Shown here: piece after piece, positions 22,898-28,238 of the stretch | Layout of the letters: each line of letters starts with the position of its first letter | Position numbering within the stretch: position 1 is the stretch's first letter | From: Flavobacteriales bacterium | Lineage (GTDB): Bacteria; Bacteroidota; Bacteroidia; Flavobacteriales_F; PHOS-HE28 | Length of the DNA: 35,712 bases | Assembly (NCBI GenBank): GCA_020437905.1 | Contig: JAGQVN010000070.1 | Location: 1 to 35,712 of the forward strand | Reading direction: 5' to 3' | Made by a program: the position numbers and the translations under genes | Notes under the pieces: model-generated | The model's database searches: none | Told to the model about the DNA's origin: nothing | The model's input: the letters and a program-made list of their open reading frames with translations, nothing else

Positions 22898-23380
22898 ATG
22901 GCTCGCAGGTTACCCGACCACCTTCAGCTCCCCGACCACGGCGTCAAAACTAAGCATGGCCCTGATGGTCTGTTGGTGTTCGACCCCGCCCGCCGGATGT
23001 GGGTGCGATGGACCCCGGAGGAATGGGTGCGCCAGCATTTTCTGAACTATCTGGTCCACGATCTCGGTTGTCCGCTTTCCCTGATCGCCATGGAGCGGAA
23101 GCTGGTGCTCAATGGGCTGACGAAGCGTTTCGACATGTTGGTCCATGGAACGGATGGCAAGCCTCTGGCATTGGTGGAGTGCAAGGCGCCGAACGTCGAT
23201 CTGGATCAGGGTGCCTTCGATCAGGCAGCGCGGTACAACAAGGTCGTCCAGGTGCCGCTTCTCATCGTTACGAACGGGCTGCGCCATTTTGCATGCTTCG
23301 TGGATCGCTCCACAGGGAGCTGGTCCTTTCTCGACCATTTGCCCGATCACGATCGGATGATGGCCTTCGGCAAGGCGTAA
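22898..23380 (+). CDS. stand-alone HsdR_N-domain (PD-(D/E)XK-like) protein
   Basis: A cytosolic protein of 160 residues consisting only of a domain like the N-terminus of type I restriction subunit R. The nuclease-like core is visible as RFDMLVHG followed by PLALVECKAP, fitting the D...ExK pattern of the PD-(D/E)XK fold. There is no helicase part and no hsdM or hsdS nearby, so it is not a restriction system. Small proteins of this kind are common in Bacteroidota, and as far as I recall often sit beside holA, as here; their role is unknown. The ATG at 22898 is preferred over a TTG two codons upstream. The S8 peptidase gene starts 9 bp after the stop but has its own -7 element. Confidence 0.88.
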   Translation: MARRLPDHLQLPDHGVKTKHGPDGLLVFDPARRMWVRWTPEEWVRQHFLNYLVHDLGCPLSLIAMERKLVLNGLTKRFDMLVHGTDGKPLALVECKAPNVDLDQGAFDQAARYNKVVQVPLLIVTNGLRHFACFVDRSTGSWSFLDHLPDHDRMMAFGKA

Positions 23381-23385
23381 CTTTG
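23378..23385 (+). promoter_or_regulatory. S8 peptidase -7 element (TAACTTTG)
   Basis: A full TAnnTTTG match that includes the stop codon of the preceding gene and ends 4 nt before the peptidase ATG. Transcription from it would be leaderless or nearly so. Confidence 0.6.
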
Positions 23386-23389
23386 AACC

Positions 23390-25987
23390 ATGCTACGTTT
23401 TAGCGTTTCGCTCTTGGCGTTCAGCCTGTTGGGGGTGTTCGCTCCGGGTCAGTCCGGTATCTTGGGAGGTGTCCAACTTCAACATTTTCTGAGCGCCGGT
23501 CATGGGGCCCATCCGGAATTGGACCTATTGCTGCGCGGACAGGTGGACTTGGTGTCCGTAGCCGTCGTGGATGCAGGAGGAAGGGTGAAGTGGTCGATGG
23601 AGGGGATCATCGGTGCGACCGTTCCGACCGAAGGTGTTCGAGCACTGTTTCGTGACGAACGGATCCAAGGTGTCGAGTTCAGTCTGTACCGGGGTAGTGC
23701 ATTGAACGATAGCATGCGCGTCAAGGCCCGTGTGGACAGGGTCCACGGTGGAGAGGCTCCGTTATTGCAAGCATACCAGGGACAGGGGGTCATTGTTGCG
23801 TTGATCGATGCCGGATTGGACCTCACCCATCCCGATTTCCAACTCGCGGATGGCAGGACCAGGGTCCTGAGGTACTGGGACCAGACCCTGCCAGTCGATG
23901 CACAGTTCACTCCGCAACCCTATGGTTACGGGCAGGCATTCGACAGTACCGCCATCAATGCTGGGGGGTGCCCATCCGTGGATCAGCCGGATTGGTTCGG
24001 CCATGGATCCACCGTCACTGGTACAGCGGCGGGGAACGGGCTGGCTAATGGGCGGCACAGGGGGGTCGCGCCGGAAGCCGACCTGATCATCGTGAGCAGT
24101 GATTTCGACCGTCCAAACTGGAAGGCCTCGGTGGCGGACGCAGTGGACTACATCCTGAACGAGGCGGATGCCTTGGGCATGCCAGTGGTCATCAATGCCA
24201 GTTTGGGCGATTACATGGGTAGTCATGATGGACTGGATGCTGCCGCTCTGTTCATCGATGACCGGCTTCAACAAGCTCCCGGCAGGGCCATGGTATGCGC
24301 GGCCGGGAACAGCCGCGGAGTGGCGAACTACCACCTGCGTGGTGCGCCGTCAGCGGATACGTCGTTCACGTGGTTCCGGGTCAACCAGAACAGCCTCTTC
24401 GGCTATCCTGCGCTGTACTTTGAGCTTTGGGCCGATACGGCCGAGATGCACCAGGTCCAGTTCGCGATGGGGGGCGATCGGATCGGAGGAGGGCGCTATC
24501 GGCTGCGTGGCAATACGCCTTTCCATGGCATTCAAGGCGTGCTTGGCCAGTTGATCACGGATACCCTGTGGTCCCTGTCCGGCAACCGGTTGGGGGTCGT
24601 TCAGTATTTCGCGGAGCTTCGTGGTGAGCAGTATCGGATGGACGTTTTCATGCCGGAACCGGACAGTATCAACGGGTATTGGTACCGGTTCATGACCGCA
24701 GGCACAGGAGGTTTCGATGTATGGAGCGGTACGGCCTTCGGAACCTCCCAGATCGTCGGGGGCGATTTCTCCAACTTCACGGAGTTCCCGGACAGTGCCA
24801 GGTATGGTCAGCCTGACACCTTCATGCGCACGGTGGACTCGTGGGCTTGTTCGGACAAGGTCATCACCGTGGCCAACTACCAGAACGAGTTGGCCTACTT
24901 CGATGTGAACAACAATTGGCTCACGTTCGCAGGAACAGAAGAGGAGCTCAGCCCGGGAAGCAGCAATGGGCCCACCCGTGATGGTCGGATGAAACCCGAT
25001 GTGGCAGCGACAGGCGACATCACGCTTTCTTCCGCCCCGCTGGACCTGATCCAGTTCTTTCTTGCGAACGATCCGGAAAAGGTGGCCCAGGGAGGCTTCC
25101 ATATCCGCGGAGGTGGGACTTCGATCGCATCCCCGGTGGTTGCCGGTACGGTTGCGCTCCTGATGGAGCGTTGTCCAATGATCGAAGGTCATCAGATCGT
25201 GTCCAGTATTCATGATGGGGCGAGGAACGACAGCTACACCGGTCCGGTGCCGAACGTGGATTGGGGATACGGCAAGTTGGATGCGTTCGCCACCCTGCTT
25301 GCGGCCGGTCCGGACATGTCCTTGGTGGCGGACACCACGATCTGCTCGGGTGATAGTGTGGCGATCGATGCACCGATGGGTCTCGTGGATCTCATCTGGT
25401 CCAACGGATCGACCATGCCGATGGTCTTTCAGAGCGCGAGCGGATCACTGTCGGTTGAAGGCACCAATTCAGCGGGTTGTTTCGGACGTTCGGATACGCT
25501 CGAGTTCATCGAGGTACCCACACCAGGGATACCAGTGATCATGCAGCAAGGTAATGTCCTCAGCACCGGACCTGCGACGTCCTATCAGTGGATGCTGGAC
25601 GGATCACCCGTCCCCGACGCGGATCAGCAGGAGTTGGAGGCCCTGACCTCGGGAACCTACCAGGTGATGATCGAAGATGAGAATGGCTGTTATGCCCTGA
25701 GCGATCCCCTGCTCGTGGTGGTGACGGGGACAGGGCTCATACAGGAGCAAGCGCGTTTCCGTGTCTGGCCTGTTCCGGCCGACCAGCAGCTTTGGATCGA
25801 GCTGGACAGGGAAGGGCCGGCTCGGGTTACGCTGATGACCATCGAGGGGCGAGCGGTGCGTTCGACAGAGGTCAGAGAAGGGAACGGAGCGATGTTGCTG
25901 GATGTTCAGCAGCTCGCTTCCGGTAGCTATCTGCTCGTGGTGGAGGTCCAGGGTGGACGGCGTTCGGTGCCGGTGATCATCCGATGA
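23390..25987 (+). CDS. secreted S8 (subtilisin-like) serine peptidase with T9SS sorting domain
   Basis: An 865-residue exported protease. A signal peptide (about 1-21) is followed by a pro-region-like stretch and a subtilase domain. The triad is complete: D140 (VIVALIDAGLD), H205 (WFGHGSTVTG) and S578 (GGGTSIASPVVAG), with oxyanion N307 in CAAGNSRG. About 130 residues between N307 and the serine form an inserted beta-rich (P/jelly-roll-like) segment, as in other Bacteroidota subtilases. Ig-like repeats follow (about 635-775), then a C-terminal T9SS type A sorting domain (about 785-865: RVWPVPADQQLWIEL through LASGSYLLVVEVQGG), predicting export through the type IX system. It probably degrades extracellular protein, complementing the S46 peptidase. 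It ends 13 bp from the convergent AstE-like gene. Confidence 0.95.
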   Translation: MLRFSVSLLAFSLLGVFAPGQSGILGGVQLQHFLSAGHGAHPELDLLLRGQVDLVSVAVVDAGGRVKWSMEGIIGATVPTEGVRALFRDERIQGVEFSLYRGSALNDSMRVKARVDRVHGGEAPLLQAYQGQGVIVALIDAGLDLTHPDFQLADGRTRVLRYWDQTLPVDAQFTPQPYGYGQAFDSTAINAGGCPSVDQPDWFGHGSTVTGTAAGNGLANGRHRGVAPEADLIIVSSDFDRPNWKASVADAVDYILNEADALGMPVVINASLGDYMGSHDGLDAAALFIDDRLQQAPGRAMVCAAGNSRGVANYHLRGAPSADTSFTWFRVNQNSLFGYPALYFELWADTAEMHQVQFAMGGDRIGGGRYRLRGNTPFHGIQGVLGQLITDTLWSLSGNRLGVVQYFAELRGEQYRMDVFMPEPDSINGYWYRFMTAGTGGFDVWSGTAFGTSQIVGGDFSNFTEFPDSARYGQPDTFMRTVDSWACSDKVITVANYQNELAYFDVNNNWLTFAGTEEELSPGSSNGPTRDGRMKPDVAATGDITLSSAPLDLIQFFLANDPEKVAQGGFHIRGGGTSIASPVVAGTVALLMERCPMIEGHQIVSSIHDGARNDSYTGPVPNVDWGYGKLDAFATLLAAGPDMSLVADTTICSGDSVAIDAPMGLVDLIWSNGSTMPMVFQSASGSLSVEGTNSAGCFGRSDTLEFIEVPTPGIPVIMQQGNVLSTGPATSYQWMLDGSPVPDADQQELEALTSGTYQVMIEDENGCYALSDPLLVVVTGTGLIQEQARFRVWPVPADQQLWIELDREGPARVTLMTIEGRAVRSTEVREGNGAMLLDVQQLASGSYLLVVEVQGGRRSVPVIIR

Positions 25988-26000
25988 TCCTGCTTGCGGT

Positions 26001-26978
26001 TCAGTAACCGAGGTGGAACAATGCGTCACCCTGGTTCACCACGGGTGCCGTGTTCACGCAGAACAGGGTGCCATCAAAGGGAGCCTTCACTTGCTTGGCC
26101 ATTTCACCATACGGATCCGTGATGAGCCCCAGGATCATGCCTTGGGACACCTTGCTGCCGTTCTCCATCATGGGGTGAAAGAGGCCGCTGTGGCCAGCTC
26201 TCACCCACCGCGATCCCGTGATCATGGAAGTACCTTGTGTCAGGTCCGAGGTGCCTGACCACAGGCCCAGGTGCTCCATGATCCGGGTGATGCCCCGGTG
26301 GGCCACCCTGATCGCATCGTGGTCAAGGCTCTGCGCCTTGCCTCCTTCGAAAAGCAGGTAGGATCGGCCTTGCTGATGGAGCATCTCCCGGATGGAGCGG
26401 GGGCGAACGGGTGCTTGAACGATCAACGGTGCGTCGAACACCCGGGCCAGTTCCAACGACCTTTCATCATCCTCCGTGAAACGGATATGGGGCAGATTAT
26501 AGCGCTGGGCGGAACCAGAGTGCAGGTCGATGGTTAGGTCCACTGCCGGTAGGACATCCTTGGCCAGTGCGTGGGCCAACCTGCTCGCCAGCGATCCCTT
26601 CGGCGAACCCGGGAAATAGCGGTTCAGGTCCCTGCCGTCGGGCAGTTGTCGCTTCATGTTCAAGAAGCCGAACACGTTGAACACCGGTATGGCCACCAAC
26701 GTACCTTTCTCGATCGGCCGGGTGCCCACATCGTTAAGGATCCTCCGTACGGTATCAATGCCGTTCACTTCATCCCCATGCACCCCGGCGAGCAGGAGCA
26801 ATACCGGTCCATCGGCCATGCTGCGATGCACCACCACGGGGATGTTCACCGAGGTCCTGGTGTACAGCCGGGCTACCTGCAGGTCCAGCGTGAGCTGCTC
26901 TCCAGGGCGGACACTTTCCCCCAGGATACGGACCAGCGCACAGCTGTCACCTTGGTCGAAGGGAACGTCTCGTTCCAT
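26001..26978 (-). CDS. AstE/AspA-like metallo-hydrolase (succinylglutamate desuccinylase/aspartoacylase family)
   Basis: A 325-residue zinc hydrolase of the M14-related AstE/AspA family. Zinc ligands are expected in GVHGDE (H67, E70) and in DLTIDLHSG further on; the C-terminal segment GVHP-like HSGLFHPMMENGSKVSQGMILG resembles the beta-barrel tail found in many members. It is not in an arginine-succinyltransferase operon and no ast genes are near, so the true substrate is unknown; many Bacteroidota members are simply annotated by family, and a deacylase or carboxypeptidase role is equally possible. It diverges from the Crp/Fnr gene across 44 bp that contain two back-to-back -7 elements. Confidence 0.86.
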   Translation of the reverse strand: MERDVPFDQGDSCALVRILGESVRPGEQLTLDLQVARLYTRTSVNIPVVVHRSMADGPVLLLLAGVHGDEVNGIDTVRRILNDVGTRPIEKGTLVAIPVFNVFGFLNMKRQLPDGRDLNRYFPGSPKGSLASRLAHALAKDVLPAVDLTIDLHSGSAQRYNLPHIRFTEDDERSLELARVFDAPLIVQAPVRPRSIREMLHQQGRSYLLFEGGKAQSLDHDAIRVAHRGITRIMEHLGLWSGTSDLTQGTSMITGSRWVRAGHSGLFHPMMENGSKVSQGMILGLITDPYGEMAKQVKAPFDGTLFCVNTAPVVNQGDALFHLGY

Positions 26979-27009: not shown

Positions 27010-27017
27010 TATCTTCG
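27010..27017 (+). promoter_or_regulatory. -7 element of the Crp/Fnr regulator gene (TATCTTCG)
   Basis: Seven of eight match to TAnnTTTG, 5 nt before the ATG at 27023. The same octamer precedes lhgO. Confidence 0.45.
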
Positions 27018-27022
27018 ATCGT

Positions 27023-27589
27023 ATGCATCAGGTCCGCGCTGCGATCTCCCGGTATGTGGAATTGAGCGATCGGGCGTGGTCCGCGTTCGAGCCCAAATGG
27101 AAGCGATTCGAATTCCAAAAGGGGGAACTGGTCAGCCAGGCGGGACGTACCGAGGACCGGTTCGGTGTCATGGTCGAAGGTGTGCACAAGTTGTATCACC
27201 TGCACGAGGGCGTCGAGCATATCGTGGGCTTCAGCTATGATGGAAGCTGGACCGGTGTTTATGATTCGTTCGTGGCCCAACGACCTGCCCGGTTCGAGCT
27301 GGTCTCCCTGGGATCTTCCGCCGCGTACATGATCGGTTACAGGGACCTTCAGGAAGCATACGATCATGTCCCAGGGATGGACCGCTTCGGGCGCCTTATC
27401 CTGGAAGAGCTTCTCCTCGGACGGGCAACACGGGAGATCGAACAACTATCGCTAAGCGCAGAGGATCGTTTCCTGCGCTTCATGGAGCGCAGTGCTCATT
27501 TGCTCCAGCTTGTCCCTCAAAAGGACATTGCCTCGTACCTGCGGATGACCCCGGAAACGTTCAGCCGGTTGAGGGCCAAGGCGGTTTGA
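27023..27589 (+). CDS. Crp/Fnr-family transcriptional regulator (cysteine-free, FNR-type recognition helix)
   Basis: A 188-residue regulator: cNMP-binding-like beta-barrel (about 20-115), dimerisation helix (about 118-140) and a helix-turn-helix (about 163-186). The recognition helix reads TPETFSRLRA, so E178, S181 and R182 give the E-x-x-S-R pattern that in E. coli FNR contacts TTGAT half-sites. The protein contains no cysteine, so it cannot bind an FNR-type iron-sulfur cluster. The residues that bind cAMP in CRP (RGE-x6-RT/S) are also not seen, so the signal is unknown. It ends just after the recognition helix, as short Bacteroidota members often do. A perfect FNR-type box begins 9 bp after its stop. 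Confidence 0.92.
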   Translation: MHQVRAAISRYVELSDRAWSAFEPKWKRFEFQKGELVSQAGRTEDRFGVMVEGVHKLYHLHEGVEHIVGFSYDGSWTGVYDSFVAQRPARFELVSLGSSAAYMIGYRDLQEAYDHVPGMDRFGRLILEELLLGRATREIEQLSLSAEDRFLRFMERSAHLLQLVPQKDIASYLRMTPETFSRLRAKAV

Positions 27590-27598
27590 GAAGGTTTC

Positions 27599-27612
27599 TT
27601 GATCCAGATCAA
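27599..27612 (+). promoter_or_regulatory. perfect FNR-type operator (TTGATCCAGATCAA)
   Basis: A 14 bp site matching TTGAT-N4-ATCAA at every position. Its centre (27605.5) lies 34 bp before the middle of the -7 element at 27636-27643, about 41-43 bp before the expected transcription start, the class II activator position. It lies between the Crp/Fnr gene and the DinB-fold gene. Confidence 0.7.
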
Positions 27613-27635
27613 TGGTCGGAGGTGTCAGCCCCCGA

Positions 27636-27643
27636 TACGTTTG
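27636..27643 (+). promoter_or_regulatory. -7 element of the second DinB-fold gene (TACGTTTG)
   Basis: A full TAnnTTTG match, 4 nt before the ATG at 27648. No TTG lies at the usual -33 distance; the FNR-type box occupies the region just upstream, as expected for an activator-dependent promoter. Confidence 0.6.
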
Positions 27644-27647
27644 CGGC

Positions 27648-28238
27648 ATGAGGAACTATGCGAGCGGTAAATTGCTGAACGACTTGGAAGCCAGACTGAA
27701 CGATCAGCTTCAGCGGTTGAATGAATGGGCCGGATACCCGGAGCAGGAACTTGTGGCAAGACCGGCTCCTGGAAAGTGGAGCGTAGTGGAGATCGTGGAG
27801 CATATGTCGCTCAGCAGTGAACATTACCTGAAAGGGCTGCAGCGCGCGTACGCCGACCCCAGGTCCCGATTCGTACGCGCGGAGCAGTACAAGGCTGGGC
27901 CGCTCGGTGAATGGTCGGTCCGATCCATGGATCCCGGTGTAGAAGGGCGTATCCGAATGAAGATGCGCACGATGGACCGCTTCGTGCCGAAGGCCGATCT
28001 GGACAAGCCACGGGAGGTTTTTCAACGGTTCAGGGGTATTCTGAACGGGTTCCTGGCCTTGTTGCCCCAGGCTCGTGAAATGGGGATCCAGGGTCCCCGG
28101 ATCGTGAGCACATTGGGCCCTGTCCTCAAGTTCAGGATAGGTGATGCGCTAAGGTTCCCTGTGGCCCATCAGCAAAGGCACATGCTCCAGATCGCGCGCA
28201 CATTGGAGCAACTGGGAGGGGGCGGTTCCCCGCCCTGA
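27648..28238 (+). CDS. DinB-fold protein, probable target of the neighbouring Crp/Fnr regulator
   Basis: A 196-residue protein of the DinB/YfiT-like superfamily. Likely metal ligands are H52 (in EIVEHMS) and the H174-x3-H178 pair in VAHQQRHMLQ; the PGKWSVVEIVEHM stretch is typical of the family. There is no signal peptide. An in-frame ATG at 27612 would put the start inside the FNR-type box, whereas 27648 lies 4 nt after a perfect -7 element and gives the normal first helix, so it is preferred. Its substrate is unknown. The promoter layout suggests activation by the regulator encoded just upstream. It converges on the amidohydrolase gene (28 bp between stops). Confidence 0.86.
   Translation: MRNYASGKLLNDLEARLNDQLQRLNEWAGYPEQELVARPAPGKWSVVEIVEHMSLSSEHYLKGLQRAYADPRSRFVRAEQYKAGPLGEWSVRSMDPGVEGRIRMKMRTMDRFVPKADLDKPREVFQRFRGILNGFLALLPQAREMGIQGPRIVSTLGPVLKFRIGDALRFPVAHQQRHMLQIARTLEQLGGGGSPP

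Follow-up and report, generated by a model that had tools for sequence, protein, structure and literature searches.

A solo Crp/Fnr-type regulator with an adjoining FNR-type operator, predicted to activate a DinB-family gene in Flavobacteriales

The FNR protein of E. coli combines the Crp/Fnr fold with a recognition helix of the E..SR type, the box TTGAT-N4-ATCAA and an operator placed near -41.5. FNR proper is defined by an N-terminal cysteine cluster that, together with one internal cysteine, ligates a 4Fe-4S cluster. Cluster-less relatives of the DNR/FixK type in Proteobacteria recognise an FNR-type box without the 4Fe-4S cluster and control denitrification or microaerobic regulons. Bacteroidota have many solo Crp/Fnr regulators. 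One of the same group has been solved by structural genomics, the Cytophaga hutchinsonii cyclic nucleotide binding regulatory protein (PDB code 3dn7); its helix reads TPEYLSEIRKK and its record gives no function, ligand or operator. A 2025 study of the superfamily, the text of which never mentions Bacteroidota, describes the base-contact residues as largely conserved (PMC12531629). Our literature searches found no description of the operators reported below and no paper that assigns operators to Bacteroidota solo Crp/Fnr regulators.

The locus considered here lies in a stretch of 35,712 nucleotides from a Flavobacteriales bacterium (GCA_020437905.1, contig JAGQVN010000070.1), referred to as the window, and its parts are listed in Table 1. 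The regulator shares box, helix, fold and operator position with E. coli FNR but lacks the N-terminal cysteine motif and the Fe-S cluster, adjoins and presumably serves one enzyme gene, and faces a Bacteroidota sigma-A promoter with a TAnnTTTG -7 element. DNR/FixK-type proteins control regulons, whereas the predicted target here is one local gene. Our reading, to which we give a probability of about 0.85, is that the regulator is a dedicated local class II activator of the YfiT-like DinB gene (dinB), acting through the box that lies beside it. Class II activation is of a known kind; the new elements, as far as the literature found allows, are the locally arranged cassette, the operator it contains and the switch in recognition described below.

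Table 1. Parts of the regulator-dinB locus, in window coordinates
Feature	Position	Strand	Remarks
Putative -7 element of the regulator gene, TATCTTCG	27010..27017	+	Predicted by reading the sequence
Solo Crp/Fnr-type regulator, cNMP_binding fold and C-terminal HTH	27023..27589	+	188 aa; PF00027, E=1.7e-6
Regulator codon 67, ATC (Ile)	27221..27223	+	Cys in 28/29 orthologs
Recognition helix, residues 177-187 (E178, S181, R182, R184)	27551..27583	+	Invariant among orthologs; helix in AF2 model
Putative operator, TTCTTGATCCAGATCAA	27596..27612	+	TTGAT-N4-ATCAA core 27599-27612, centre 27605.5
dinB promoter -7 element, TACGTTTG	27636..27643	+	Perfect TAnnTTTG; no TTTG at -33
DinB_2-family (YfiT-like) protein	27648..28238	+	196 aa; ATG 27648; PF12867, E=1.8e-11

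The regulator and its sensor domain

Members of the Crp/Fnr superfamily carry an N-terminal cNMP-binding β-roll, a long dimer helix and a C-terminal helix-turn-helix. The window regulator belongs here, with a PF00027 match above the cut-off and an AF2 model (pLDDT 94) that in Foldseek matched GlxR, CRP, FNR and 3dn7. The best match in the profile search, over the full length, was again 3dn7 (E=1.5e-29), the nearest solved sequence relative, whilst DNR (3dkw) was matched only remotely in sequence (profile E=0.0007). The preliminary description had noted an open reading frame with the FNR-type contacts E178, S181 and R182 and no cysteine, and the translation of the gene confirms it. Both marks of FNR-type DNA recognition are present by sequence, the E..SR helix, which with R184 is invariant in the orthologs, and a TTGAT-N4-ATCAA site, which is kept at all 34 loci.

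The absence of cysteine had been taken to mean the absence of an oxygen-sensing cluster, and this claim has to be divided. The N-terminal cysteine motif of the FNR iron-sulfur cluster is missing from the window regulator and from all orthologs checked, and the NCBIfam search gave no FNR match; FNR-type oxygen sensing is out because no ortholog has the motif. The lack of cysteine itself does not extend to the relatives. Their regulators contain one to four cysteines, mostly at positions 25, 38, 67 and 77, and since Cys67 is present in 28 of the 29 readable orthologs, where the window copy has Ile67, the cysteine-free state is on this alignment a private trait of that copy and does not define the regulator-box-dinB unit. 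His61 is likewise kept in 28 of 29. With respect to cAMP, CRP uses the Arg-Ser pair of a phosphate-binding cassette to contact the ligand; in the alignment, judged by eye, the arginine of this cassette is variable and the serine is replaced by proline (RPAR, KPAR, TPSR). A ligand or modification felt by the cNMP-type β-roll, and not an FNR oxygen cluster, would set the activity of the regulator, and Cys67 could take part in sensing in most relatives. We note that one regulator ortholog (L012, genome G043) has an in-frame TAG at codon 23, with dinB and a box of one mismatch still in place.

The box and the dinB promoter

The comparison set comprises 45 genomes of the family to which the window genome belongs. 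An ortholog of the regulator (53-64% identical) and dinB are both present in the same 34 genomes and both missing from the same 11; the two genes are adjacent in 30 of the 34. The perfect palindrome announced in the preliminary description is found in the window as TTGATCCAGATCAA, starting 9 bp past the regulator stop in the gap of 58 bp that separates the genes. Failure of relatives that keep both genes to conserve the box had been named beforehand as a refuting result, and every one of the 34 dinB promoters (29 once similar ones are removed) retains it, with the consensus TTCTTGAT-N4-ATCAAG and zero to two mismatches. Regulator, class II box and DinB target thus form a conserved unit, as had been proposed. 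On the left side TTCTTGA never varies, nor does TCAA on the right; the base after the latter is G in 33 of 34, the window copy with T being the sole exception. Mean pairwise identity is 95% over the motif compared to 32% over the spacer.

Taken by itself within the window the box is not compelling by chance estimate. A window scan allowing one mismatch gave 2 matches against 0.8 expected, and the 3.15 Mb genome holds four perfect TTGAT-N4-ATCAA boxes, the other three being inside coding sequence. What places the box beyond chance is that box and spacing together are conserved in 34/34 dinB promoters, and that the pattern of box, 26 or 27 bp and TTYG gave 40 matches in the 45 genomes against a single control match. 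In the window genome the scan for boxes ahead of a -7 element, which had been suggested as a check, returned this pattern at the dinB promoter only. A degenerate box with exact spacing matched at two further places (L322 and L323), the first of which is not a convincing promoter on inspection.

Four loci in which the genes are separated allow box and regulator gene to be told apart. Regulator and dinB are parted by a MazF/PemK-like gene in G044 and G041 and by approximately 1.5 kb in G014, and in G036 the two genes are on different contigs. In each case the box and -7 element stand ahead of dinB and not behind the regulator gene; the box belongs to the dinB promoter. This bears on whether the palindrome could have arisen by accident or act at the RNA level, perhaps as a weak terminator or as a stem of the regulator mRNA. 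It is self-complementary, it follows the regulator stop closely, and one perfect box in a window of this size is not rare enough to exclude accident. The separated loci, however, refute an RNA-level role unless they are misassembled; no T tract follows the palindrome, its bases are conserved in identity and not by compensatory change, and its position is locked to the -7 element. We regard this explanation as having practically no chance of being correct. The toxin-type MazF/PemK-like insert is on the opposite strand in both genomes (L010 in G044, L019 in G041).

The distance from the box centre to the last G of TTTG is 37.5 bp in the window. Over the 34 promoters the corresponding distance to the end of TT[T/C]G is 37.5 bp in 29 and 36.5 bp in 5, set against a TTYG background elsewhere of 0.1 per offset. 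The sigma-A element TAnnTTTG of Flavobacterium psychrophilum occupies -12 to -5 (PMC9723704), and with the start taken from that consensus the predicted +1 in the window is 27648, the A of the dinB ATG, and the box centre is at -42.5. The preliminary description had expected a centre some 41-43 bp before the start and a perfect -7 without a -33 element ahead of the DinB gene, and both hold. A centre near -41.5 and the lack of a -35-type element, again relative to a start derived from the F. psychrophilum consensus, mark a class II promoter. TT[T/C]G precedes the ATG by exactly 4 nt in 20 of the 34 promoters and by 5-8 nt in the rest, so the dinB mRNAs are predicted to be leaderless or nearly so. 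A second perfect -7 element, TAACTTTG, occurs in the window at 23378-23390, exactly 4 nt from the ATG at 23390 of a large secreted protease-like gene, and on this basis leaderless mRNAs may be common in the window genome.

These features suggest a sequence of events. The regulator, a local member of the Bacteroidota solo Crp/Fnr group, would bind as a dimer to the palindrome that closely follows the regulator gene, where the centre of the site falls near -42.5 in the dinB promoter, just upstream of the would-be -33 element. From there it would recruit sigma-A RNA polymerase to a promoter with only a -7 element, giving class II activation and a leaderless or nearly leaderless message. Judged from sequence, the box is very probably bound by the window regulator and, given binding, activation would be strongly favoured over repression. 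Transcription of dinB by read-through from the regulator gene across the intergenic gap could also occur. Autoregulation of the regulator gene was considered and rejected; a search of 30 orthologous loci, with up to one mismatch allowed, gave no box close to the start of the regulator gene, and the gene's own -7 element has no operator at class II distance.

Related cassettes and a change in recognition

The scan of genome contigs identified 48 homologous regulator loci, with approximately 29-38% identity, in Flavobacteriaceae, Roseivirga, Saprospiraceae, Lewinella, Chitinophagales, Balneolaceae and others. No conserved TTGAT boxes are found beside these 48 distant homologs; the DNA downstream contains a TTGGT palindrome instead. 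In 39 of them TTGGT-N4-ACCAA lies nearly always 2-6 bp, in a few cases 13-22 bp, past the regulator stop; at two further loci this box, spaced in the same way, is situated at a greater distance downstream. Between the box centre and the G of TTTG there are precisely 36.5 bp in 38 of the 39, the remaining one having TTTA at that place; on the F. psychrophilum scale this distance puts the box centre at -41.5 in most of these relatives. The order is regulator stop, palindrome, -7 element and one enzyme gene, encoding a SnoaL/NTF2-like protein, an α/β-hydrolase (haloalkane-dehalogenase-like) or a DinB_2 protein. On these comparisons the dinB unit does not stand alone: its layout recurs across Bacteroidota in a homologous group that differs in half-site (TTGGT) and in recognition helix.

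The precision of this layout is relevant to whether the regulator might repress dinB from the box and release it on a signal. Crp/Fnr proteins can repress, some activators of the family also do so, and the box abuts the dinB promoter. A fixed centre at -41.5 or -42.5, the missing -33 element and the exact phasing (38/39 and 34/34) are nevertheless the signature of class II activation, and a repressor site need not hold one-base precision across Bacteroidota. We consider repression improbable and retain class II activation.

The recognition helix of the TTGGT group reads D-P/S/A-T/S-N-F/L/Y-S-K as opposed to T-P-E-T-F-S-R in the window's family; E178 becomes asparagine, R182 becomes lysine and S181 is unchanged. 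The change is of note since both positions contact bases and are described as conserved throughout the superfamily (PMC12531629). The family of the window also has paralogs of both kinds. Four of the N..SK kind (L265-L267 and L269) have TTGGT at 36.5 bp before an α/β-hydrolase gene, with one mismatch in the L265 box, whereas in the E..SR paralogs L288-L291 a SnoaL-like gene is preceded by TTGATCTGGATCAA and by a second half-site, CTTGAT, the implied centre of which is at 37.5 bp. The G044 genome contains both kinds. In G009 a TTGAT site stands at class II distance before an α/β-hydrolase gene whose family is elsewhere preceded by TTGGT. Half-site and recognition helix therefore appear to co-vary, E..SR with TTGAT and N..SK with TTGGT. 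In four SnoaL-type cassettes (L072, L094, L095 and L096) a perfect box is accompanied by a degenerate second site 23 bp downstream, a CTTGAT half only, at the class II distance, in a tandem arrangement.

The tree unites the N..SK regulators in a single clade (support 100/99) next to that of dinB, with the E..SR regulators of the SnoaL cassettes in a clade apart. TTGAT is thus probably ancestral, with a single switch. We caution that the co-variation rests on few independent changes, as E/R to N/K is one event in the tree; TTGAT is nonetheless common to two separate E/R clades. It also counts against the proposed reading that many other E..SR paralogs in the family genomes lack such a box at their side. 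Target types change several times inside the N..SK clade, which suggests that the cassette accepts different target genes.

Could the box be real yet be the site of a different Crp/Fnr protein in the cell, the neighbouring regulator being merely linked? The window genome encodes three further PF00027 proteins, one of which (L003) has an E..SR helix. Against this, box and dinB occur only alongside an ortholog of the window regulator (34/34 as opposed to 0/11), other Crp/Fnr proteins exist in genomes without that ortholog, and the co-variation of the adjacent palindrome with the recognition helix argues against a different binder. Among the other E..SR paralogs examined, those of the L003 type included, none has a perfect box adjoining it. 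Another binder is accordingly an unlikely alternative to the adjoining regulator. Further TTGAT sites at class II distance occur in relatives, at L233/L069 (G001, G002), L253 (G037) and L257 (G044), ahead of a small membrane protein, an ECF-sigma-like gene and a second membrane protein; these are possible extra regulon members.

Across the phylum the palindrome alone is not enriched, CTTGGT-N4-ACCAAG being matched in 51 of 296 genomes, about the level of the reversed control. Box and -7 element at fixed spacing were matched in 41 of 395 genomes with a sizeable control count, a modest excess, from which it follows that a minority of genomes carry the cassette. We lean towards a view of the dinB unit as one branch of a Bacteroidota-wide 'plug-in' cassette, in which a solo Crp/Fnr activator and its self-adjoining operator at -41.5 or -42.5 would serve one enzyme gene (DinB, α/β-hydrolase or SnoaL/NTF2-like), and in which one code switch, from E..SR/TTGAT to N..SK/TTGGT, would let both forms coexist in G044 without cross-talk. 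If this is correct, the DNA immediately after each such regulator gene reveals its operator, so that site, position and target can be predicted; a natural substitution of two residues in DNA recognition is open to testing, and the cassettes offer paired sensors and promoters to a phylum in which genetic parts are scarce.

The DinB protein and neighbouring genes

PF12867 is found in all 19 members examined, placing the enzyme in the DinB/YfiT (STL) superfamily, and the histidine triad (His52, His174 and His178) is invariant in DinB members. The nearest fold is that of YfiT (PDB code 1rxq); a sequence search of the PDB for DinB relatives gave none. With YfiT and the bacillithiol S-transferase-like (DinB/STL) proteins the enzyme shares the DinB_2 family, the four-helix fold and the histidine triad, at approximately 15% identity to YfiT. 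The product would have a His3 metal site and may be of thiol-transferase or detoxification type; from fold and triad we put a detoxification-type role at even odds. The superfamily is described as including bacillithiol transferases (PMC5815605). BshC, of bacillithiol synthesis, was not found in the window genome (92.5% complete) and is present in 42 of the 45 family genomes. Thiol use by the DinB enzyme is a lead, not a result.

A role of the locus in anti-phage defence was considered and set aside, there being no PADLOC match. A divergent AstE/AspA-type deacylase gene (window 26001-26978) lies about 45 bp upstream of the regulator, and such a gene also adjoins the regulator in at least one relative (L091).
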